From Dichotomocladium elegans (taxonomy: Eukaryota; Mucoromycota; Mucoromycetes; Mucorales; Lichtheimiaceae), in the NCBI GenBank assembly GCA_025716815.1, contig JAIXMN010000009.1, forward strand, positions 372,001-436,000: 64,000 nt of DNA. Direction: 5' to 3'. Both the position numbers and the translations under genes were made by a program. Position 1 is the stretch's first letter; each line of letters starts with the position of its first letter. Below are positions 1,506-28,307 of the stretch, one piece after another. Under the pieces are notes generated by a model, which saw nothing but the letters and a program-made list of their open reading frames with translations, made no database searches and was not told the origin of the DNA.

Positions 1506-2951
1506 TGAAGACGACGTATCTAGAGAGACAAAAGGAGGGAAAAAAGAACAAAGGAACCAACAAGCAGACGAGAGATTGGACACTCAAGTTGTTTATTCAG
1601 AAAAGAAAAGGGTGGGCAGCTCCGCAGTGTTTTTGGATGGGGGGGGAAGAGAAAGAAGAAGAAGGATGAAATGCTGGGGTCGGGTTGTGGGTGGGGAACG
1701 TGCTTTCTCAAATTTCCGGTGGTGTTACATCTTCGCCAACCGAGAGAGTCGATGGGAAAAAAAAATAGGGCATTCCCCTTCACCCGCAACTGCACAAGAG
1801 TTGTATTAACTGACAACTTTGAAAATAAATTATGGCGAATGTCGCACGAGAATATCGGTAAAGCAAGCCGGAGAGGCATTAGCTCGTCTCCCATACGCTT
1901 TCGTTTACCCGTGAGGTAGTCAGCTGTATGTCACTGCAGTACCGTCTGGCAGAAGACTTACCAGCGTACGTAGGCCGGAGCTGGTGAGCATCAAGACGCG
2001 AGAGGAAACGACGGAGCAGACGCATAGGAAACTCAACGAAGGCCATGTAAAAAAAAAAATGCTTGCGTTGCGTCCAAACCATTGTGCCCCCTACCCCAGG
2101 TTTCCTCGCCTTTCACGGCGCCTGCTTGAGATTGCAAAGTCCACACCTATCGAGAACCCCAACACGCTATATTTCGCAGCGCAAAACGAGAAAGCGCGAT
2201 AAGTCTATATACTGTCCAAGGCGCAAGAGAGAAAGTTAAAGAAAGCTAGATGCCTATAAACTCGCTATGGTCTTTTACCTTTTCCTTTTCTTCTTGGCTA
2301 GTGGCTGTGGGAGTTTCAAACTATATGTTAAGGATGCCTGGTGCTGAAACTGCTTCCAAGGATTGTAGCTGTTTTCGCTCTTGTTTTTGGCACTGTAACT
2401 ACTTTAGAAGCCCCTTCCTTGGACCATCCCATATTGCTCTTCATGTTATAATAAGGAATCCAGACTAATCAAGGAAAACACGGTTTTTCCTAAAGACGAT
2501 GTCAGCCATGTCCTCCATCGGCGCACCCAACCAAAGTGCTCGTTGAAGCCGATCCTTCTATAATGACAAGTTGAATTCATTTTTCACAAATCGATGAAGC
2601 GATCATTTTCGACACCTTAAACCCATCAGATCTCGGCACCGGTTACTCCATCAGTCACTCTAGAAACGATGGATGGATTCCCATCAACCCGTTCTAAAAT
2701 GCATATATAGTGTATTCTTTTTCCATAAAAAGAATCTCCCTGATATTCCCTCTTCTCAATTGATGTATCAACCAAAGCTATACTATAGGCAACGCAGAGA
2801 ATGGACCCCAGCCTCGTTTGTGGAACAGAGACATGGCAGCATGCTTTAAAGTCCACCATATTATCCGCGGCCTTTGCTCACCGCGTTCGATTCCCCCAAT
2901 GGTTTCGCCAAGAAGCCGTGGCAGGCATTAGGCTCTGAGAACCAGAGGTAG
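1506..2951. other. intergenic, upstream of the bZIP gene
   Basis: No convincing gene. The stretch has several poly-A/T runs and short unsupported ORFs on both strands. The part next to 1505 should hold the bZIP promoter and 5'UTR. No clear TATA box or repeat was recognised. Confidence 0.5.
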
Positions 2952-3051
2952 CCCAATGAAATGTAAGGCCACAAAAAGCAGGGCGAGCATGGAGAATAGC
3001 ACAACCACAACGACCACGAGGGCGTCGAAAATGAGTTGTCCTGGAATTATA

Positions 3052-3670
3052 CACCATTTTTCAAAATCAAAGTCGCACCCTGCCAGTTTTGAAGTCGCAG
3101 GATCGCAAAAATACAAATCGCATTTTTGTCCGGAAATCTTTACGCGTGATGACAAAGCAAAAGTCGCATACATACACGGAAAGATGTCGCAAATCCATCT
3201 CATCCTTATGACTCTTTCTCTTTATAAACTTTTACATTTTGAAATGAGCAATCTATTATTTTACAACGATGGCCAAGGTCATGTCGCTGATGAGGAAATG
3301 TACTCACTTCAATCCGTTTGTTCTTACACTGAATATCTGTGTAGCATATCGTGCAAAGATAACTCTGAGTTTACTCTCACACACATTCCCAAGCGAAAGG
3401 ATACATACATTCGGATGAAAGAAGCGGGGATCAAGGGCAGTTACACAGCATACACTGATCAAGGCAAGGTCAGATGTTTCAAACTGGTGTTTGAGGAGGT
3501 ATTGAGTGCATCAGCTGCAGCAAAACAGCTAGGACTCCATGTTCGTTCAGCACAGCGATGGGCATTACAGTAAGAAAAGGATCCTGACAGCATTTTAAGA
3601 AACGTAGAAGCAGGGGGCCGATCGTGTATTCTCAATGAAGAGCATTTATTGTTCTAGAATGCAATTTTCG
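3052..3670 (+). pseudogene. Tc1/IS630-type transposase, N-terminal relic (copy 1)
   Basis: An open stretch to 3573 ends in a helix-turn-helix-like segment (EEVLSASAAAKQLGLHVRS, then AQRWA), the usual DNA-binding start of IS630/Tc1-type transposases. After the stop at 3571 the similarity appears to continue in broken frame with DPDSILRNVEAGG and ILNEEH, motifs I recall between the HTH and the DDE domain in Mucoromycota transposases. The catalytic DDE domain is missing. The same DNA recurs on the minus strand at 13725-14165 and 14844-15230, and its first 50 bp recur at 27611-27664, so this is a repeat family. It is a dead fragment. Its start is uncertain. Confidence 0.65.
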
Positions 3671-4076
3671 CTAAAAATAGCCGTACTCAAAAGAATCCTA
3701 TATCGAAAGAACAAAGAACTATGGGAGTGTGCTTTCTTTGTCAATGAGCCATTTAGCCTGGGGATTGTAACTCCGAAGCTGGTTATCAAATGGAATAATG
3801 AAGTAATAGCTTTCAGGAGACTCCTGTGTTTTCATTGTAATATTCAGAGAAATTATTCATTATGTACCTACACTTTCTGAACGTATGGATAAGGATGACA
3901 GCAGTGTCGTGTTTTGTTGTGTTGTAAGAGACTGAGAGAGTACGAAAAGAAGTACAATCTTCCTACACTACACAAGTGCCGGATATGTATCGGATTATTC
4001 TTGAGATGGTCTCTTGGAATTACTTGTTGGAATTGTTTGGGATTTCATTGTTGATTTCAGACCGCCCTCACGTCGA
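3671..4076. other. no gene recognised; possible transposon debris
   Basis: The stretch has stop codons in all frames beyond short ORFs. It lies between the transposase relic and the MITE and may be the decayed remainder of the transposase, but I see no catalytic motif in it. Confidence 0.4.
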
Positions 4077-4078
4077 TA

Positions 4079-4250
4079 CAGTGGCCGCCCCTTGTAGTTA
4101 TACCCTCGGTTCCAGGAAATCGCATCACTATAATGAATTATCACTATAATGAATTGGAATAAGCCCTACCTGGCAATTTTGTCCTTCATAAAGTGTATCG
4201 CTATAACGAATTATCATTATAATGAATATCACTATAACGAGCGGCCACTG
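4079..4250. mobile_element. 172-bp pogo/Tigger-like MITE
   Basis: The element begins CAGTGGCCGCCCCTTGTAG and ends in CTATAACGAGCGGCCACTG. The two ends are inverted repeats matching at about 20 of 24 bases. It is flanked by TA at 4077-4078 and 4251-4252, the target duplication of Tc1/mariner-pogo elements. Inside, CTATAAYGAATTATCAYTATAATGAAT-like units repeat on both sides (about 4128-4155 and 4200-4236). CAGTG...ATAACG termini are typical of the pogo/Tigger group. There is no coding capacity, so it would need a transposase in trans. Confidence 0.8.
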
Positions 4251-4495
4251 TAAAACCTCATTAAAGAACCCAGTGGGAAAAAGAAAAACACTGTGGAGAT
4301 GGATCATTGCTGACACTATAAATAGTGATGCTCAAGCAAGCTGTCCCTTTCCATTATCCACATACAAAACTAGAGCCCATTCAGCCTACAGAAAATAACA
4401 CAGCACCACATTTACGGTTGAAAGGTAATACGGCCGCTTTCATACTCGGCTCTGCGATACTAAGAAATAATATACCCTAGGTCTTCACCCACCAA
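4251..4495. promoter_or_regulatory. 5' flank of the Fanzor ORF
   Basis: These 245 bp between the MITE and the Fanzor ATG should hold the left end and promoter of the Fanzor element. No terminal inverted repeat matching the 3' side was seen by eye. Confidence 0.3.
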
Positions 4496-6694
4496 ATGGC
4501 CCAACCCCACCGCCCCGTCATTCCCGAAGGCATGCGCACTGGCCACAGCATTGACCGCACTGGCCGTATAATTGGGGTGAAATCGTCCATACGGGGCATC
4601 GGCTGGCGACAGCAGTACCGTGAACGTCTGTATCAGTTGGTTGACCTTGTCCACAACACCACAACACAGGCGTACGCGTTCGCCAAATATATTTTCATCA
4701 ACGAGGCAGCGCGCGATCCAACTTTTAACATCCAGGAAAACATCACGGAGAAGTTCTTTTCAGAAGTTTGGCTCTCCATGGTTAACAAAGCCGAACGCCG
4801 CACCCAAGGTGAAACTGCCCGCATCCGAGAACTAATTAACCGCCACAAGGATGAGTACCTTCGGATATCCGGATACGACAGGCCTGCGTTCCCTTATTCC
4901 CAGCAATGTTCTTCTTACGAAGGCACCAAGATTTATACTGCTTACGTGAATAATGTCCACATGCGGTTCGGGCAACACCTTCGGCGTGTCATCAATGTCA
5001 TCCTGAATCTTCGTCAGCGAAAAGCCGACCGCAAGCGAGAGTTAATCGCACAGGGCCTAAGCCCCGATCAAGTACGCCAGGACCTTTATGAAACCATCAC
5101 CCGGCATGCCACAGGATTCAAGCTAGCAATTGCCCGTCGAGGTGTTTTGAGGGAAGACATTAACGCCGAACCTGGATTTCTTCGGGAAGCATACGATATC
5201 CTACAACCTGTCTTAAACGCTTACCCCCGAAACCACCAATTCCAACACCAGAGTATCTATTACGACGCCAAGGCCAATCCTGTTAAGCATTTCAACGCCT
5301 TCTTCCAGCTTGCACGCGTTTGTCAACAGAACGGAATACGCGGATTCAACTGTTTTCCACTTCGTCGCTCGTGGTCACCATGCTACATGGAGATCGATAC
5401 GAAAATCCTTTGCTACCATATCCTGGGCTGCAAAATGGAATCCCACACAAGCAATATGGAGTACTGGAGACGTGTTGTAAACCTGAAATCAAGAGCTTTC
5501 AAACCCCAAGAATCCGAGCTGCTCCAATTCCGTGGGACTATTCACACTGACGGCGTCGGTGTTACTGTGTTCAAGAAGACAAATGGCCTTCAATCGGGTT
5601 TCGGACAGAGATTTGGCATCCAGAGCGAAGATATCGAATACGTCACCCCACAGATACTCCGGAACGAAGACTATAGAGGACAATGGGTCACCATTGATCC
5701 TGGCAGAAGGGACCTGTTGTATTGCGTTCATGAGAACTCGTCACCCGACAACCACCAGACCTTCCGATATACAAAGCAGCTTCAAGATCATACACGGAAG
5801 ACCAAACGGTACCGCAGACTCCGAGAACGACTCAAGTTAGAGCGACCCGAGGTCGCGTTGGCTGAGCAGAATCTATCTCAATTTCAAAGTCATACGCTTT
5901 CCGTGCCCAACTACGACGGATACCTCGCCGCCAAGAATCGGGTCTCTGTAGTTCTCAAGTCTTTCTACGCGACAACCACTACGAACCACCCGAACCCGCA
6001 ATTTCTTTTTCGAAAACTTCGCCTGTCAGCGTTTTACAAGAAGCAGCAAGCAGATGAAAAGCTTCTCGATTCTTTGAATACGAAGTTTGGCAGTAGATCC
6101 GTTTTCGTGATGGGAAATTGGTCTGCGCCGCATACAAGGTATCACGAGCCTATCCGTGGTGTCGGCTTCCGGCGGCTGTTGAAGAAGAACAATTGCAATA
6201 TTTATTTGGTCGACGAGTACAAGACAAGCAAGTGCTGCCCTGTATGTGACAATGAAAGCCTTGCTACCTTTAAAATGGTTCCTAATCCACGCCCATATCG
6301 ACGACCCGACAATCCGCTCACGATCTGCCATGGCCTGCTACGATATGAAGGACGGGCATGTTGTGTTATACTTCCAAAAGATTATAATACAGTATTTTGA
6401 TGTTTCAATAGATGCACAAATCAAAACTGTACAGCAGGCATGGCAGAGGGTGCTTGTCAACCAAGGTTATGGAACCGGGATCTGGCGGCGGCTCTCAACA
6501 TGCATCATATCCTCCGGGGTCTTCGGGAAGATGGTATCATCCCAGCAAGGTTCCAGAGAAGAAATGCTGCACAAGCATCCGCAGCTGGTGGAAGACCACA
6601 CTCACCTGAACCAGAGCAGCGCAGCGTGAGACCACGACGGGCAAGGCCAGGAAGGCCACGAGGTGCACGCTCTGGCGGGTCGAGACGACCGTAA
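4496..6694 (+). CDS. Fanzor (eukaryotic TnpB-like RNA-guided endonuclease), coding frame interrupted
   Basis: The ORF runs 4496-6400 (634 aa) and, after an in-frame TGA at 6398, continues in the same frame to TAA at 6694. Features in order: a helical N-terminal region; RuvC-I TIDPGRRDLLYCV (Asp about residue 401); the GNWSAPHTR segment near 540; LVDEYKTSK (about 572-580), whose Glu fits the displaced catalytic acid of Fanzors; a zinc-site CPVC; then, past the stop, CTNQNC (second zinc pair) and RLWNRDLAAALNM, the RuvC-III Asp (codon 6479-6481). Fanzor/TnpB proteins cut DNA guided by an RNA made from the element's 3' end. The segment 6343-6411 (69 bp) between CTACG and ATGCACAAATC looks like an intron whose first base is A rather than G (ATATGA for GTATGA); exact removal would join GLLR to CTNQNC. 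So the gene is either spliced unusually or recently inactivated. It sits among mobile elements, away from housekeeping genes. Confidence 0.85.
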
Positions 6695-6711
6695 CCCCAA
6701 CCAAGAATTTT

Positions 6712-6783
6712 CCGCGTCAGTTATCGCTGACGCACCCAGGATAACCACAGCCCTTCGGGGCAAGCCCCCTTCCTTTGGAAGGA
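6712..6783 (+). ncRNA. candidate Fanzor omega (guide scaffold) RNA 3' hairpins
   Basis: Three perfect hairpins follow the Fanzor stop within 70 bp. The first is GCGTCAG-TTATCG-CTGACGC (6714-6733). The second is GCCC-TTCG-GGGC with a UUCG tetraloop (6750-6761). The third is CCTTCC-TTT-GGAAGG (6768-6782). TnpB and Fanzor guide RNAs are transcribed from the end of the ORF and its 3' flank, so position and structure fit. The second, decayed Fanzor copy keeps a similar last hairpin (TTTCC-ACT-GGAAG at 22573-22585). The true 5' end probably lies inside the ORF and the guide would follow the last hairpin. Inference from structure only. Confidence 0.5.
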
Positions 6784-7909
6784 CGGTGTGTTGTAAGTCA
6801 ACGGGATTGGAGAAGGCATAGTGTTTTCTGCTGACTAACAGGGTTTCATCCATGGATGCGAAATCTTTTTACCTATTGATACGACAAATTTATATAATTC
6901 TATGCGACATTCTTCTTGTATTTTGCACGACATTATTTTATCTTGTTTACGAAATTTATTTTTGAAAATAAAGTATACCCGACCTATACATACTCCCTAT
7001 AAAACCCCCAGATCACGACCGTTATCACTGCACAACTTTCAATTATCCCTTTCTTTATCTCGGTTGTCTTCCGTTCCATTACCTTTCTACCTTTCTTTCC
7101 TATACACTTATTCTCTTCGAATATTTGGAAAACAGCAGCCATTCAAACAGTATATCAAATAAAATACTAGCTCCTATGATAGTCCCATTCGGAGGTCCCG
7201 TACTTCCTTCCTTCCTTAAAAACCCAATATAAATACCCGACTAAGGATATATTATGCTGATCCAGGCAGGTTTTAATAAAACTTTCACAATGACATGTGT
7301 TTAACATAATCTGCTTTCGTGTGCTATCAGGCGCACTTGTAATTTTTCTTAATGTGGATAAACCGGACTACATGTACATAGTCGTATATCAGAAGATATA
7401 CTGATACTAACCATCATCGTCCGTGTTACAGTTGGCAACGTATATCTGTGTGTTTGTCAAGTCAAGAATGAAAAGATGTGTAGCAGCATCAGCATAACAA
7501 GTTAGTGGTGCCATGGCAGTAATACACCGCACAAGCATTGAAAGTCTGGTAAGCCCTAGTATATTCTCTATGCAGCTATATTCTTCTCATCAAATCCACC
7601 TCTGTTCCCTCTTATTTTTATAGACTCTGACACATTGCATGGTATTAAAATAAGAAAAAATGAGTTCTTGAACATTAAACGCAGTATTACGTAGTTCTAA
7701 ACCCCTTCGCAACTGATGGATTAGCATATGCTTGTGGAACATCCACGATCCCTAGACAAAACGGTACATACCTATTATCTAATTCTGACAGTTCCAGGAT
7801 CACGAGAATAGAAGTCTTCAAGGATCCAATATTATATACACTATAGTAATATCCGTAATTATCATACAGTAAATGATATGCATCATTGTTGTCTATTACG
7901 AAAGTGAGC
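6784..7909. other. AT-rich intergenic, no gene recognised
   Basis: Contains pyrimidine-rich DNA with a TATAAAA-like box near 7000 and an 86-codon low-complexity ORF (6902-7162, Ser/Leu/Tyr-rich) that looks like promoter or 5'UTR DNA. It could be an old LTR, but no matching second copy was found in the window. Confidence 0.4.
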
Positions 7910-7910
7910 T

Positions 7911-8113
7911 ACATATTCTCCCGAGCTTAATCCAATAGAGCAATTCTGGACAGTGGCAAAGGGTAGGGTAAAAGGCCATATATTTTTGCAGCGAGACAGG
8001 TTATCAAAACGAATTACGGAAGCCTGCAACACAGTGGAAAAAGGTCACTTCAAAGGCTTTGTTTCGCATTCTTACAAGTGCTGGGAAAGATGTCGAAGCA
8101 AAGTGCCCATGTA
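7911..8113 (+). pseudogene. DDE (IS630/Tc1-type) transposase C-terminal relic
   Basis: Without a start codon, the frame beginning at about 7911 reads TYSPELNPIEQFWTVAKGRV, then KGHIFLQRDRLSKRITEACN and KGFVSHSYKCWER, to a TAA at 8111-8113. YSPELNPIEQFW carries the final Glu of the DDE triad and is diagnostic of IS630/Tc1-mariner (DDE_3) transposases. Nothing upstream can be joined to it in frame, so only the last 65 or so codons survive. It may be the missing C-terminus of the family whose N-terminus is at 3052, but that link is inference. Confidence 0.8.
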
Positions 8114-9991: not shown

Positions 9992-12550
9992 GCTCAGCTC
10001 ATTTTGAGTGGGCCGAGGTGTCGTTCAGCTCATTTTGAGTGGGCCGAGGTGTCGTTCAGCTCAAATGGGGGTGGGCCGAGGTGTCGTTCAGCTCATTTTC
10101 AGTGGGCCAAGGTGCCGTTCAGCTCATCTTGGGGGTGGGCCAAGGTGTCGTTCAGCTCATTTTGAGTGGGCCGAGGTGTCGTTCAGCTCAAATGGGGGTG
10201 GGCCGAGGTGTCGTTCAGCTCATTTTGAGTGGGCCGAGGTGTCGTTCAGCTCATTTTCAGTGGGCCAAGGTGCCGTTCAGCTCATTTTGAGTGGGCCGAG
10301 GTGTCGTTCAGCTCACCTTGGGCGTGGGCCGAGGTGTTGTTCAGCTCATTTTGAGTGGGCCAAGGTGGCGTTCAGCTCAAATGGGGGTGGGCCGAGGTGT
10401 CGTTCAGCTCATTCTGAGTGGGCCGAGGTGTCGTTCAGCTCATTTTGAGTGGGCCGAGGTGTCGTTCAGCTCAAATGGGGGTGGGCCGAGGTGTCGTTCA
10501 GCTCATTTTCAGTGGGCCAAGGTGTCGTTCAGCTCATTTTGAGTGGGCCGAGGTGTCGTTCAGCTCATTTTGACTGGGCCGAGGTGTCGTTCAGCTCATT
10601 TTGACTGGGCCAAGGTGTCGTTCAGCTCAAATGGGGGTGGGCCGAGGTGTCGTTCAGCTCAAATGGGGTGGGCCGAGGTGTCGTTCAGCTCATTTTGAGT
10701 GGGCCGAGGTGCCGTTCAGCTCAAATGGGGGTGGGCCAAGGTGTCGTTCAGCTCAAATGGGGGTGGGCCGAGGTGTCGTTCAGCTCATCTTGGGGGTGGG
10801 CCAAGGTGTCGTTCAGCTCATTTTGAGTGGGCCGAGGTGTCGTTCAGCTCAAATGGGGTGGGCCGAGGTGTCGTTCAGCTCAAATGGGGGTGGCCGAGGT
10901 GTCGTTCAGCTCATTTTGAGTGGGCCGAGGTGTCGTTCAGCTCACCTTGGGCGTGGGCCGAGGTGTTGTTCAGCTCATTTTGAGTGGGCCAAGGTGGCGT
11001 TCAGCTCAAATGGGGGTGGGCCGAGGTGTCGTTCAGCTCATTTTCAGTGGGCCAAGGTGCCGTTCAGCTCATCTTGGGGGTGGGCCAAGGTGTCGTTCAG
11101 CTCATTTTGAGTGGGCCGAGGTGTCGTTCAGCTCAAATGGGGGTGGGCCGAGGTGTCGTTCAGCTCATTCTGAGTGGGCCAAGGTGTCGTTCAGCTCATT
11201 TTGGGGGTGGGCCGAGGTGTCGTTCAGCTCAAATGGGGGTGGGCCGAGGTGTCGTTCAGCTCAAATGGGGGTGGGCCGAGGTGTCGTTCAGCTCAAATGG
11301 GGGTGGGCCGAGGTGCCGTTCAGCTCAAATGGGGGTGGGCCGAGGTGTCGTTCAGCTCGTCTTGGGGGTGGGCCGAGGTGTCGTTCAGCTCATCTTGGGG
11401 GTGGGCCAAGGTGTCGTTCAGCTCATTTTGAGTGGGCCGAGGTGTCGTTCAGCTCAAATGGGGGTGGGCCGAGGTGTCGTTCAGCTCAAATGGGGGTGGG
11501 CCGAGGTGTCGTTCAGCTCATTTTGAGTGGGCCGAGGTGTCGTTCAGCTCACCTTGGGCGTGGGCCGAGGTGTTGTTCAGCTCATTTTGAGTGGGCCAAG
11601 GTGGCGTTCAGCTCAAATGGGGGTGGGCCGAGGTGTCGTTCAGCTCATTTTCAGTGGGCCAAGGTGCCGTTCAGCTCATCTTGGGGGTGGGCCAAGGTGT
11701 CGTTCAGCTCATTTTGAGTGGGCCGAGGTGTCGTTCAGCTCACCTTGGGCGTGGGCCGAGGTGTTGTTCAGCTCATTTTGAGTGGGCCAAGGTGGCGTTC
11801 AGCTCAAATGGGGGTGGGCCGAGGTGTCGTTCAGCTCAAATGGGGGTGGGCCGAGGTGTCGTTCAGCTCATTCTGGGTGGGCCGAGGTGTCGTTCAGCTC
11901 AAATGGGGGTGGGCCGAGGTGCCGTTCAGCTCAAATGGGGGTGGGCCAAGGTGTCGTTCAGCTCAAATGGGGTGGGCCGAGGTGTCGTTCAGCTCATTTT
12001 GAGTGGGCCAAGGTGTCGTTCAGCTCATTTTGAGTGGGCCGAGGTGTCGTTCAGCTCATCTTGGGGGTGGGCCGAGGTGTCGTTCAGCTCATTCTGAGTG
12101 GGCCAAGGTGTCGTTCAGCTCATCTTGGGGTGGGCCGAGGTGTCGTTCAGCTCATTCTGAGTGGGCCAAGGTGTCGTTCAGCTAATTTTGAGTGGGCCAA
12201 GGTGTCGTTCAGCTCAAATGGGGGTGGGCCGAGGTGTCGTTCAGCTCATTCTGAGTGGGCCAAGGTGTCGTTCAGCTCATCTTGGGGTGGGCCGAGGTGT
12301 CGTTCAGCTCATTTTGAGTGGGCCGAGGTGTCGTTCAGCTCAAATGGGGGTGGGCCGAGGTGTCGTTCAGCTCAAATGGGGGTGGGCCGAGGTGCCGTTC
12401 AGCTCATTTTGACTGGGCCAAGGTGTCGTTCAGCTCAAATGGGGGTGGGCCGAGGTGTCGTTCAGCTCATTTTCAGTGGGCCAAGGTGTCGTTCAGCTCA
12501 TTTTGAGTGGGCCGAGGTGTCGTTCAGCTCATCTTGGGGGTGGGCCGAGG
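9992..12550 (+). repeat. 2.56-kb minisatellite of 31-33 bp units
   Basis: About 80 head-to-tail units share the 22-base core GGGCC(G/A)AGGTG(T/C)CGTTCAGCTC. The core is followed by one of a small set of linkers of 9-11 bases: ATTTTGAGT, ATTTTCAGT, ATTTTGACT, ATTCTGAGT, AAATGGGGGT, ATCTTGGGGGT or ACCTTGGGCGT. Unit length is therefore 31, 32 or 33 bp. Linker order is non-random: a 220-bp block at 10910-11129 recurs, apparently identical, at 11518-11737 (offset 608 bp), showing higher-order duplication. Units lack stops in two frames, so long ORFs arise in all frames without being genes. It separates the YARKS pseudogene from a Ty3-type relic. Confidence 0.95.
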
Positions 12551-12757: not shown

Positions 12758-13690
12758 TTGAATAGCTTACGTAATACTGGATCATTGAAAGATCTATGGA
12801 CAACATTGCACCTCCGTCATTTTGAAGCCATCAAAAAATTATTACAAAGTGCACCTGTTCTCAGTCTTCCAGATTTGAGTTTACCTTTTGAAGTCGCAAC
12901 TGACGCCTCAAATAGTGGTATTGGTGCTGTCTTGTACCAAACGCGTGGAAATCGAACATGCTACATTGTGTTGTTGCGCGCGCATTGTCGCCATTAGAGC
13001 GTAACTATTCTGTCACGAAGCGAGAGTTGCTGGCCGTTGTGTATGCATTCAAGAAATTTCACCAGTTCTTGTGGGGTTGTCCATTCACATTATACACGGA
13101 CTACAAAGCCCTCGTCTATTTATACACGCAACCCATTGCTAATCTTATGATGGTCCAATGGTTAGATGCCATTTAGCGATTGCAATTTCACGGTTGTGCA
13201 TCGTCCTGGTGTACTTAACGTGTTGCCTGATGCTCATTCTCGTCTGTTCCCTCCTGAAAAAGAGCTGGTGGAGGGTAATGTCTCAAATACGCCTGTGCTT
13301 TTGAAAACTCCCACAGTCGCAGCTGTCACGCGACCAGAGTACATGACGCCACCAGAGAATGAACGGATACAGTTGTTGGAAAAGCGCATCTGTTGGGTCA
13401 CTGTGGTGTAGATCACATAGTCAAGACCCTACATAATGACGATATACACTGGAGAAACATGCAGAAAGAAGCTCTAGAGTTGGTTTCGAAATGTCAAACT
13501 TGCCAACAATTCTCCATCACGAAGCGTGGGTATCATCCGCTACGTAATGTTTACTCTAATGAACCAGCAACACATTGGCTATCGACCTTAGGAGAATTTC
13601 CTACTTCTGCAAGAGGCAACAATTATATGCTCGTACGATATCATTCTCGTGCTCTTTACGGAGAATACGTGGATGGTCTCTGCGTCTACA
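12758..13690 (+). mobile_element. Ty3-type retrotransposon pol relic (RNase H to integrase)
   Basis: Fragments in alternating frames read in pol order. First is an RT end plus RNase H start (FEVATDASNSGIGAVLYQ). Next is the RNase H core (KRELLAVVYAFKKFHQFLWG and TLYTDYKALVYL, with the catalytic Asp/Glu/Asp), then HRPGVLNVLPDAHSR. Last is an integrase H2C2 zinc finger (LLGHCGVD...KCQTCQQF, 13390-13515) and the start of the integrase core. RNase H before integrase identifies the Ty3 (Metaviridae) type. At least three frameshifts or stops break it; gag, protease, most of RT and the LTRs are not recognised. A dead fungal retrotransposon fragment. Confidence 0.85.
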
Positions 13691-13724
13691 ATCCTTAAAA
13701 ATGCTGTTGCGGGGTCCTTTTCCT

Positions 13725-14165
13725 ACCGTAAGTAATGTCCAATTGCTGCGCTGAGCGAACACGGACTCCTCGCTGTTTTGCAGCAGCAAGCCGATGCACT
13801 CATGCCCTTCTCAAACATCAGTTTGAAAAAAATCTCACCTTATCATTGTGGGTGTAGCTGCGCTAGACGCCTGCTTCTTCCAACTGAATGTCTACATCCT
13901 TTCGCTTGGGGATATATGCGTAGCAACAAACTCAGGGCAGCCCCTGAAAAGTAGACTAGGCAGGATTCTGTGCGAGGACAAACGTATTGAAGAGAGTACC
14001 TTTCGTCATCCACGACATGGTCTTGCCCTCGTAATAAACCACAATAGATTGCTCATTTCTGGATGTAAAATGAGTATAAAAGATAAGGATTTCCCCACGC
14101 GTGTGTGTCTATGTATGCAGCATTTGTTTGTGACGATTTCTGGGCAAAGTGCGAATTATATAGTT
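13725..14165 (-). pseudogene. Tc1/IS630-type transposase N-terminal relic (copy 2)
   Basis: The reverse complement matches copy 1 (3095-3570) along its length, for example GAAATGAGCAATCTATT, CCCAAGCGAAAGGAT, AAACTGGTGTTTGAG-like and GCAAAACAG stretches in the same order. Frames are broken throughout. It directly follows the Ty3-type relic on the opposite strand, so one element probably landed beside or inside the other. Confidence 0.7.
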
Positions 14166-14843: not shown

Positions 14844-15230
14844 ATGCACTCAAACATTAGTTTCAGAAACCTCGTTTTGCCTTGGTCAATGCCCGTTTCT
14901 TTCATCCGCATATCTGTATCCCTATCGCCTGGGAATACGCGTGGCATCAATCCCAAGGCTACCGTTGCACGATATAATACGCAGATATTCATTGATTGTG
15001 TTTGTTTGGAGGAGAGGATAGATAGAGAAAAGCAATGTCTCCTCGTCAATGATTTAGGCCTAGAACCGCCATGCTCATCAACAATATGGCCCCTGCCCAT
15101 GTTTGTAAAGAAGCACAGAAGGATGAATCGACAGGAGCCTGTGTGCGTTTGCTTGCTAAGCGGGAATTTCTATTTTTGTCATCCTGCACCTTCTGAATTG
15201 AGTTTTGCTTTTTTATCTCACAGCTGACGT
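14844..15230 (-). pseudogene. Tc1/IS630-type transposase N-terminal relic (copy 3)
   Basis: The minus strand reads GDRDTDMRMKETGIDQGKTR and FLKLMFE, matching KRKDTYIRMKEAGI and GKVRCFKLVFEE of copy 1. Upstream DNA (TTCAGAAGGTGCAGGATGAC against copy 1 TTTTGAAGTCGCAGGATCGC) is also related, so the homology spans almost 400 bp. It is more degraded than copy 1 and stops before the HTH is complete. Confidence 0.65.
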
Positions 15231-22344: not shown

Positions 22345-22600
22345 GCTGGATATTGAAATAGAAAACTATGTGGCGTGTATGCATACCAGAGGGTGTTCGC
22401 TGGCCAAGATTGTGTAGTGGGGCAGAGGATCTGGGGGCGACTTTTAACATGCATCATGTTCTTCGGGGGTCCTCGGGAACTGAACCAAAGCAATGAAGCG
22501 CGAGACCCCCGACGGGAAAAAGTCAGCAAGCGCGCCGAGTCGAGGCACCAGGCTTCTTTGGTAGCAAGCTCCTTTCCACTGGAAGCAACGGTTTTACAGA
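22345..22600 (+). pseudogene. decayed Fanzor 3' end (second copy)
   Basis: DNA similar to the end of the intact Fanzor (6390-6545) is recognisable. CAGAGGGTG is followed by a matching CAACCAAGGTTATGG-like stretch (GGCCAAGATTGTGTAGTGG here), then GGATCTGG and the shared AACATGCATCAT. The RuvC-III WNRD codons are destroyed and a stop is present. Upstream, CGATGTTTCGCTGGAT matches TGATGTTTCAATAGAT in the interrupting segment of copy 1. A hairpin TTTCC-ACT-GGAAG (22573-22585) sits where copy 1 has its last hairpin. No RuvC-I or N-terminal part was found upstream. Confidence 0.65.
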
Positions 22601-22895
22601 GATAATAAAGTATGCCAAAGAGAGTCTGCAGTCAATTATGGCCTTCATTCATGCACTTTTGTTGCGGCTATACATATTCTCAAGCCCAGACCTGCTTACG
22701 CGCATCCTGTCTCTCTCTTTTTGCTGCATCCTGGTACAAGCGTGCACTTTTTTGGTTTTATCAGAACACGGGAAGAAATTGCGGTACAAAACCGCATTGA
22801 CTCAAGTTAACGGTCCCTTCAAAATCAGGAACCAATCCAAAGAAAACTCAGCACTGCACCTGCTGACGCGCCACCTTTATTACTCGCACTTCGCT

Positions 22896-27326: not shown

Positions 27327-28307
27327 CGAACTGGCCCCCAGAAAGCAGCGCACCCTTCTTCCTCCTCCTCCTCCTCCTCTTTCCACACGTTTTCAAAAAA
27401 TGTTTTTCTCACGCAGCCATACACTTATCACCTGTCTGCTGCGAATCTGACTCGTTAGTTGGCGGCGGAGGTGGTGATCTTGTAAATAACTACTAAAAAG
27501 CATGCCTTATTTTCCGTATTTTAGCATCCGAGTAAAAATGTAATGTTAATCTGACGCTGTCTGTGTTCCATTTTTGTATGATGTACCTATCCTTCAATGC
27601 ATACATATATCATTTTCCCAAAATCAAAGTCGCACCCCTGCCAGGTCTGAAGTCGCAGGATCACTACGGATCAGGGCGCGGCTGCATTAGATCACATATG
27701 AGAGTAGGCCCCCATTCAACCTTATCGACCGGCTCTCTTTACCTTTGTCCCTGGGCTGCCTGCCGTGCTGAAAGTATATTTGGTTAACAGCCTGGGCGCT
27801 CCGAAAAATATCTGACTGTGGGGAAGGGAGGTTGTTTCCCTTGCAGGTTGGACAACATGTCTTTTTTAAGGATGCGTTTGGAGATTTTCTGTTTTCATTG
27901 CCCGAAAACCTTGGTGTTGCCAAGTGAAAGATGTCTTCATTTTCCGACACATCTCTCTCTATAATTTAGTCCTCTCTTTCTCTTTCTCTTCTTCTTTTTC
28001 TCTCTGCGTCCACCTTCCCACTTTTTTATTTCCATTTGCTTCCTTCTGCTCGGCCCTTGCAAAGGTGTGCATGCACCACTGATATAGAATAATACAAGGA
28101 AAAACAGCGCAACGAAGCGATAATACGAGGAAGCAAGAAAGAACACCCACCGTTTTAGCATTCTTCCCCTTTTGTCCCCGTAGTAGTACCTTGTTCGCCC
28201 CGGGCGTTTGCTAATTGTGTTGCGGGTATCACTGCTTTGTCATTTCACGATCGTCCTTCCAAAGCCTTCAACTACAACCATCCACTGATCATCCAGCCTT
28301 TGCAGCA
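27327..28307. other. intergenic with transposon fragment; neurofibromin promoter
   Basis: Holds a (CTC)n-rich patch near 27357-27380, the short repeat copy at 27611-27664 and a long pyrimidine-rich tract (27950-28010) before the neurofibromin gene. The 87-codon minus ORF at 27687-27950 (with a CPTC motif) is unsupported. Confidence 0.45.
27611..27664 (+). repeat. 54-bp fragment of the transposase repeat family
   Basis: CAAAATCAAAGTCGCACCC then CTGCCAG and TGAAGTCGCAGGATC match 3053-3113 of transposase copy 1 almost base for base. The similarity stops abruptly after GGATC. This fixes the likely 5' limit of the repeat family and marks an old insertion or excision scar. Confidence 0.75.

Follow-up and report, generated by a model that had tools for sequence, protein, structure and literature searches.

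The making of Fanzor guide RNAs in native eukaryotic cells appears as little known in the portions of the Fanzor literature compared here (PMC10432273, PMC11423790, PMC3627910, PMC10711439). A Fanzor1 element of Dichotomocladium elegans raises the questions of where its omega-RNA takes the guide from, and how a scaffold that stops well inside the element is brought beside that guide. Here we analyse this element in a stretch of 64,000 nucleotides (the window, G000:C112:372001-436000), together with its relatives in the same genome (39.4 Mb, 122 contigs). Feature coordinates are collected in Table 1.

Table 1. Features of the Fanzor element and its surroundings (window positions; a slash within a sequence marks a junction)
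Feature	Position	Strand	Remarks
Remnant of another Fanzor exon 2 beside the insertion site	2755-2916	+	
TATA in left flank	3048-3051	+	TA at 3050-3051 is the target-site duplication; TATA is the predicted TAM
Whole Fanzor element	3052-6973	+	3922 bp, CACCATTTTTC ... GAAAATAAAG, imperfect terminal inverted repeats
Remnant presumed to resemble Tc1/mariner N-terminal helix-turn-helix	3480-3573	+	open frame 2932-3573
MITE-like insert	4077-4252	.	26-bp inverted ends
Fanzor1 exon 1	4496-6342	+	RuvC-I, RuvC-II, first half of zinc ribbon
Fanzor1 intron	6343-6411	+	69 nt; donor AT here, GT in 45/47 readable loci
Fanzor1 exon 2	6412-6694	+	RuvC-III NRD 6473-6481, arginine-rich tail, stop TAA 6692-6694
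SL1	6714-6733	+	7-bp stem, loop UUAUCG
SL2 region	6746-6792	+	UUCG hairpin 6750-6761 (4 bp), SL3 6768-6782 (6 bp)
Possible closing stem of SL2 region	6746-6749 with 6787-6790	+	
GTAAGT, proposed 5' splice site of omega-RNA intron	6793-6798	+	41/43 family-A copies
Proposed branch point CTGCTGACTAAC	6828-6839	+	motif CTGAC/CTAAC
AG directly behind branch-point motif	6840-6841	+	window copy
Tract without AG to the element's terminal AAAG, proposed 3' splice site	6842-6973	+	
AATAAA, possible poly(A) signal	6967-6972	+	
Right-hand TA target-site duplication	6974-6975	+	TA at 47/47 right ends
Predicted guide of window copy	6976-6992	+	from flank position
Decayed relative	22383-22612	+	exon-2 remnant 22383-22550, hairpin-3-like stem, right end AATAAAG/TA at 22604

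The Fanzor1 gene and its relatives

The open frame at 4496-6400 (634 aa) encodes a clear Fanzor1, with RuvC-I (VTIDPGRRD, 5687-5713), RuvC-II (LVDEYKTS, 6206-6229) and a CPVC motif (6236-6247), and with homology over most of its length to the Parasitella parasitica Fanzor 1, PpFz1 (E 1.1e-119), and to SpuFz1 of Spizellomyces punctatus (E 9.7e-44). In a Pfam search of the window frames, Fanzor gave only a sub-threshold TNB match. The initial annotation saw all RuvC landmarks in one frame; the Fanzor identity, RuvC-I and RuvC-II stand, while RuvC-III is encoded in a second exon behind an intron. The frame is kept when 6343-6411 is removed, and the RuvC triad and zinc ribbon are complete only when exon 2 is joined.

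Nor does the window frame appear intact. The end of exon 1, scanned in 57 loci and readable in 47, carries the donor GT in 45, GC in one (L018) and AT in the window copy alone. The AT is probably a broken splice site and the gene of the window copy probably a broken gene, whose protein may lack RuvC-III, so that a whole Fanzor is probably not made from it. For the family, 15 intact copies, selected because their exon 1 has kept its length and is free of stops, were compared with a neutral replacement-to-silent ratio of 2.56: they carry 27 replacement against 31 silent private changes (P 4e-5) and 5 against 8 shared ones (P 0.012). With so few replacement changes, the family seems to have spread in a functional state.

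A search with the window protein gave 78 matches in this genome, and a search with exon 2 at least 150 (scored among 285 candidates). Of family A, which includes the window copy, we compared 50 loci that are 72-100% identical over the matched part, many of them partial or decayed. Family B was compared at 15 loci (56% amino acid identity to A, gene kept in 6), D at over 20 decayed loci, and E at six loci whose protein is 35% identical to that of A; members of families F (48%; L057, L107-L109) and G (52%; L054) were also compared, and a further relative, C, was seen in one place only, downstream in L055. Outside this genome, the named relatives of the window proteins lie in the Mucoromycota: the window Fanzor shares 47% identity with a Mucor mucedo protein, and a neighbouring gene, whose relatives are named neurofibromin 1 by one source, shares 61% with a protein of Absidia glauca.

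Several other repeats lie in the window. Further relatives, with 73-88% similarity to its left portion, are found for the element at 13650-14087, 14892-14994 (minus strand) and 27605-27662. Just outside the element, a weak match to the DDE_3 transposase family, under its curated cut-off (7908-8111), may mark another mobile element adjoining the insertion. A large G+C-rich minisatellite with strong strand skew occupies 9994-12550 (about 81 units of 31 nt, or 40 dimers of 63 nt).

Element ends and target site

When other copies are aligned, the ends of the element are sharp, and 16 of the 24 terminal bases match between the inverted repeats (hand count). Beyond the TA found at every right end, the next base is T in 40 and C in 7 of the 47. 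On the left, 40 ends were found, two of them without a readable start; the 38 that were scored are preceded by TATA (36), CATA (1) or a sequence out of register (1), and the base before these four is T in 19, A in 11, G in 8 and never C.

Comparison with empty sites, the route to the element boundary proposed by the initial annotation, bears out a TA duplication at one locus. Among 22 joined flank pairs (10 + 12), only that of L005 matched elsewhere across the junction (two places, one examined); L041 matched elsewhere by its left flank only, and the remaining pairs matched only themselves. The diverged empty-site homologue of L005, at C36, reads CTTTATTGTATGCGACC, compared with CTTTATTATA and TATGTGACC on the two sides of the element. 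This homologue has all four positions that precede the right flank, with G as the second base, which makes the upstream TA target DNA and identifies the duplication as TA; it is a single site, and one of its four bases differs. The possibility that the left TATA is element DNA was discarded on the same homologue. The conserved left-flank dinucleotide, which has a counterpart in SPu-1, leads to the prediction that the TAM of this Fanzor family is probably TATA.

The element is thus a Fanzor1-carrying, TA-inserting DNA transposon of the Tc1/mariner-like kind, and it has expanded in this fungus. It has the TA duplication and the terminal inverted repeats of this type, and is without a DDE transposase of its own: no intact transposase was seen inside it, and the open frame 2932-3573 had no Pfam match. 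Part of that frame (3480-3573) we take to be a remnant resembling the N-terminal helix-turn-helix of Tc1/mariner transposases. The element is presumably moved in trans; a left-end DNA search and Pfam on the window frames did not find an autonomous partner. The left end of the MITE-like insert is fuzzily matched in 37 of the 50 family-A loci, and the alignment skips this stretch in seven (L020, L022, L023, L032, L033, L037 and L047), so the insert possibly marks a younger branch of the family.

A hairpin scaffold behind the gene

Directly 3' of the final stop lie three perfect hairpins, with stems of 7, 4 and 6 bp and UUCG as the second loop, just where the initial annotation had drawn them. 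The energy of the fold is by itself only moderately unusual (-32.1 kcal/mol for 6695-6792, z -2.55; equalled by 5 of 200 shuffles). More weight can be given to the changes between copies, which were scored in an alignment of 41 sequences of A, B and D, or 38 when identical rows are counted once. Over SL1, SL2, SL3 and the closing stem, 88.3% of cells are paired, 26 cells are changed on both sides compared with 10.7 in shuffles (none of 500 reaching this value), and the covariation score is 0.153, versus 0.033-0.094 for slid versions. Neither the pairs with a double change (7, reached by 176 of 500 shuffles) nor the extra pair types (22, reached by 480 of 500) exceed the shuffles, and weight is therefore placed on three double changes fixed between subfamilies: CG to UA and AU to GC in SL1, and UA to CG in SL3. 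These are few events, inherited by many copies. Family B lacks SL3 and the closing stem, and its SL2 is not aligned with that of the other two families.

Between A and B, the SL1 block is identical at 24 of 29 positions and the fourfold sites of exon 1 at 73 of 168, so that the noncoding 3' region is more alike than silent sites. A scaffold reaching into the coding exon was considered and is not supported, the A-B fourfold identity of exon 2 (12/25) being similar to that of exon 1.

A scaffold model built without family E (R1) matched all six E copies at the end of the gene (E 6.5e-4 to 0.04), and no scaffold match was obtained with it in the 3' sequence of families F and G (L057, L107-L109, L054). 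L057, of family F, keeps a 576-aa open frame beside such 3' sequence. An Rfam search of 6400-7050 gave no match up to E 1. Within the window, the only match of R1 was the window copy itself (118 bits). A second copy had been said to keep a related last hairpin despite coding decay; this is the decayed relative at 22383-22612, where a hairpin-3-like stem can be seen by eye and the whole-scaffold model has no match, leaving the similarity weak.

Could these sequences act as DNA, for instance in transposase binding, or be relics, with no guide RNA at all? Many copies are decayed, and the right-end repeats resemble transposase sites by eye, but the compensatory changes in SL1 and SL3, a silent-site divergence far above that of SL1, and the scarcity of replacement changes in the 15 intact copies argue against it and make this reading quite improbable. 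The three hairpins are instead very probably the 5' part of an omega-RNA scaffold, a role already suggested by their place after the gene and supported by the compensatory changes across subfamilies and by the 7-bp SL1 common to the three solved Fz1 omega-RNAs in the portion of PMC11423790 at hand. A candidate omega-RNA with such an SL1 is thus found beside the 3' end of the gene, as is typical of Fanzor1, by sequence and covariation. The RNA part of the window copy is intact and could serve a Fanzor made elsewhere.

Position of the guide

The initial annotation places the guide immediately past hairpin 3, at about 6784 and onward. In favour of this, its placement relative to the hairpins is like that in PpFz1, where the guide follows SL2 (in the available text of PMC11423790). 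However, positions 6781-6798 are identical in 37 of 43 readable family-A copies, so a guide there would be one fixed guide common to the copies, and the element continues for about 190 bp past 6783, the variable flank starting only at 6974. A guide inside the element is therefore very improbable.

A guide derived from host sequence past the right end, after the TA, with TATA as the probable TAM, is likely on the present sequences. It is expected from SpuFz1, whose guide is the variable sequence past its right end, and the flanks here vary as a flank-derived guide requires: the 16-mers after the right-end TA are distinct in 44 of 44 copies.

Splice-like signals between scaffold and flank

Placing the guide in the flank leaves 181 nt in family A (6793-6973), 159 in D, 156 in B and 136 in E between the scaffold and the flank. 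The scaffold ends at 6792 with ...GGTGTGTT, immediately before GTAAGT. From there, a donor is followed by CTGACTAAC, GTGACTAAA or CTGCTAAC and then by an AG-poor tract up to the terminal AG/TA. This splice-like order is seen in A, B, the one C copy, part of D, and E, the last in spite of its distant protein. The donor is GGTAAGT in 12 of 15 B copies and GTGAGA or GTGGGA in the six E copies; the branch-point motif is TGACTAAC in 39 of 43 A copies, TGACTAAA in 11 of 15 B copies and TTCTGCTAAC in the six E copies. Donor and branch-point consensus are thus present in A, B and E and missing from most of the decayed D, where 12 of 21 copies are without the motif and GTAAGT is kept in 5 of 23 rows. 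The consensus sequences and the meaning of AG exclusion are used here as generally known; a terminal AAG is a weak acceptor.

The absence of AG is strand-specific and departs from shuffled sequence in each family (P 0.0024 in A, counted after the AG abutting the branch point, 0.028 in B, 0.013 in D and 0.0021 in E); among window stretches of like G+C content, 1 of 20, 6 of 838, 5 of 76 and 20 of 4786 are free of AG for A, B, D and E, respectively. These P values are not multiplied, since A, B and D are of common descent and the idea was drawn from, and scored on, the same sequences.

The signals could also belong to an ordinary intron of the 3'UTR (6793-6841 or 6793-6973) that plays no part in guide making, the guide RNA being made otherwise or not at all. 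In family A, GTAAGT...CTGACTAACAG has the appearance of a compact intron of 49 nt; 41 of 43 copies carry an AG no more than about 8 nt from the motif (nearly all then AG-free to the end), and many candidate host introns are 50-80 nt long. Against this, no AG comes between the motif and the terminal AG of the element in 8 of 15 family-B and 5 of 6 family-E copies (1 of 21 in D, 1 of 43 in A), and a plain 3'UTR intron is unlikely. The branch-point distance is a difficulty of another kind for use of the terminal AG: it is mostly about 95-140 nt across copies, compared with 12-36 nt from motif to acceptor in most of the putative host introns in which a motif was found, a few of them having 4 or 59-61 nt. 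Two B copies (L056 and L085) have short right ends, AATACAG/TA, about 30 nt after the motif, a more usual acceptor distance, with another AG between motif and end.

The strongest competitor is a long, unspliced omega-RNA spanning everything between SL1 and the right end inclusive (about 260 nt here), with the guide next to it, in which GTAAGT and TGACTAAC would be kept for RNA structure or protein binding. Conservation extends to the right end; the SpuFz1 scaffold takes in the right inverted repeat and continues directly into the flank in the consulted portion of PMC10432273, and that of PMC11423790 gives 150 nt for the GtFz1 RNA. Folding, if anything, also counts against splicing: with random guides, the UA of the target-site duplication is less paired in the spliced than in the unspliced form (0.40 and 0.74 in A, 0.54 and 0.65 in D, 0.67 and 0.93 in B, 0.61 and 0.72 in E). 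Yet such an RNA would be longer than the Fz1 RNAs of 75-150 nt given in the same text of PMC11423790, two copies with an intact exon 1 (L006 and L016) have lost part of the right-end region, and the strand-specific lack of AG and the order of donor and branch point are left unexplained. A long unspliced RNA is accordingly a serious possibility, and probably not what is made.

Proposed maturation of the omega-RNA

The order of donor, branch point and AG-poor tract between scaffold and flank makes a spliceosome-matured omega-RNA, joining the scaffold to a flank-derived guide, the most likely model, one that we propose tentatively and at less than even probability. The element ends, the TATA/TA target, the compensatory hairpins and the splice-like order are observed; RNA, splicing, cleavage and homing we infer from them. 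In the proposed pathway, the spliceosome would remove 6793-6973 with its donor, branch point and AG-poor tract, giving ...UGUGUU/UA-guide in family A and ...UACCUUCGGG/UA-guide in family B. The outcome would be a short Fz1 omega-RNA with the scaffold directly beside the guide, and AATAAA (6967-6972) could cause the transcript to be cleaved and polyadenylated a short way into the flank, setting the 3' end of the guide. A Fanzor loaded with the spliced RNA would then cut the empty site left after excision and so help to copy the element back. More tentatively still, the right end may be intronic in two or more Fanzor lineages whose proteins are only 35% identical, with the spliceosome joining scaffold and host-derived guide in both.

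Spliceosomal maturation is favoured by the AG-free tracts, the signal order in A, B and E, the match of R1 in E, and the resemblance of spliced family B to PpFz1: joined in silico, B consists of the 7-bp SL1, UACC-UUCG-GG/UA and the guide, with 47 nt from the conserved UUUUCC through UA and with a proposed 4-bp SL2 that the UA of the target-site duplication would close. Its lowest-energy fold differs from this SL2. Spliceosomal maturation is weakened by the great distance from branch point to 3' end, by the AG that adjoins the branch point in A, by signals that are decayed or missing in D, by the folding comparison, and by the lack of a scaffold match in families F and G. Among the matches listed from the open-access literature, titles and abstract openings name no spliced Fanzor omega-RNA.

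Comparison with known systems

The comparisons below follow the portions of the cited papers that were at hand. PpFz1 (PDB 9cf0-9cf3; PMC11423790) is the best solved relative of the window Fanzor. Its RNA, 75 nt in all, has the 7-bp SL1 and a 4-bp SL2 before the guide (residues C50-C58), an arrangement like that predicted for spliced family B, and its TAM, ATN, fits the TATA found here. In contrast, its FRI insertion of about 100 aa is a gap in the alignment with the window Fanzor, and 136-181 nt separate scaffold and element end in the D. elegans families.

SpuFz1 is carried by SPu-1, a TA-flanked multi-copy element like the one described here (PMC10432273, PMC3627910). In SPu-1, CA precedes the left repeat and the TAM is CATA; here a left-flank dinucleotide is likewise conserved, but the sequence is TATA. 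The SpuFz1 guide is the flank, as predicted here (PMC10432273), whereas its 75-nt scaffold spans a 30-nt right repeat straight into the guide, in place of the long right end of the present element, and SpuFz1 is a single ORF, unlike the window family with its intron. In the D. elegans genome, the left end of another element seems to begin at L100, shortly past the right end of a family-E element, with CATA, the same as in the SpuFz1 TAM, before CACC.

The Fanzor1 Tc/mariner elements PGv-1, PUl-1 and PUl-4 (PMC3627910) also have TA duplications and carry Fanzor with or without a transposase; here only a transposase remnant is left, and the text consulted on those elements does not mention any 3' noncoding RNA. 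A tie between a transposon and RNA splicing, as in the proposed model, is known from bacterial IStrons (PMC4227781), where a group I intron splices itself and makes the insertion harmless to the host; the signals here are of spliceosomal type and are proposed to act in the Fanzor transcript.

Implications

If true, a spliceosome-matured omega-RNA would be a new way of making a guide RNA and would link transposon biology and splicing in cooperation: one sequence would serve as a long transposase-binding end in DNA and yield a compact guide RNA. For Fanzors of this kind, guide design with a scaffold taken up to the element end would fail if the model holds. The dozens of related Fanzor elements in this genome, each with its own flank as a possible guide and with a common TATA target, form a natural library in which to ask what Fanzor does for its transposon.
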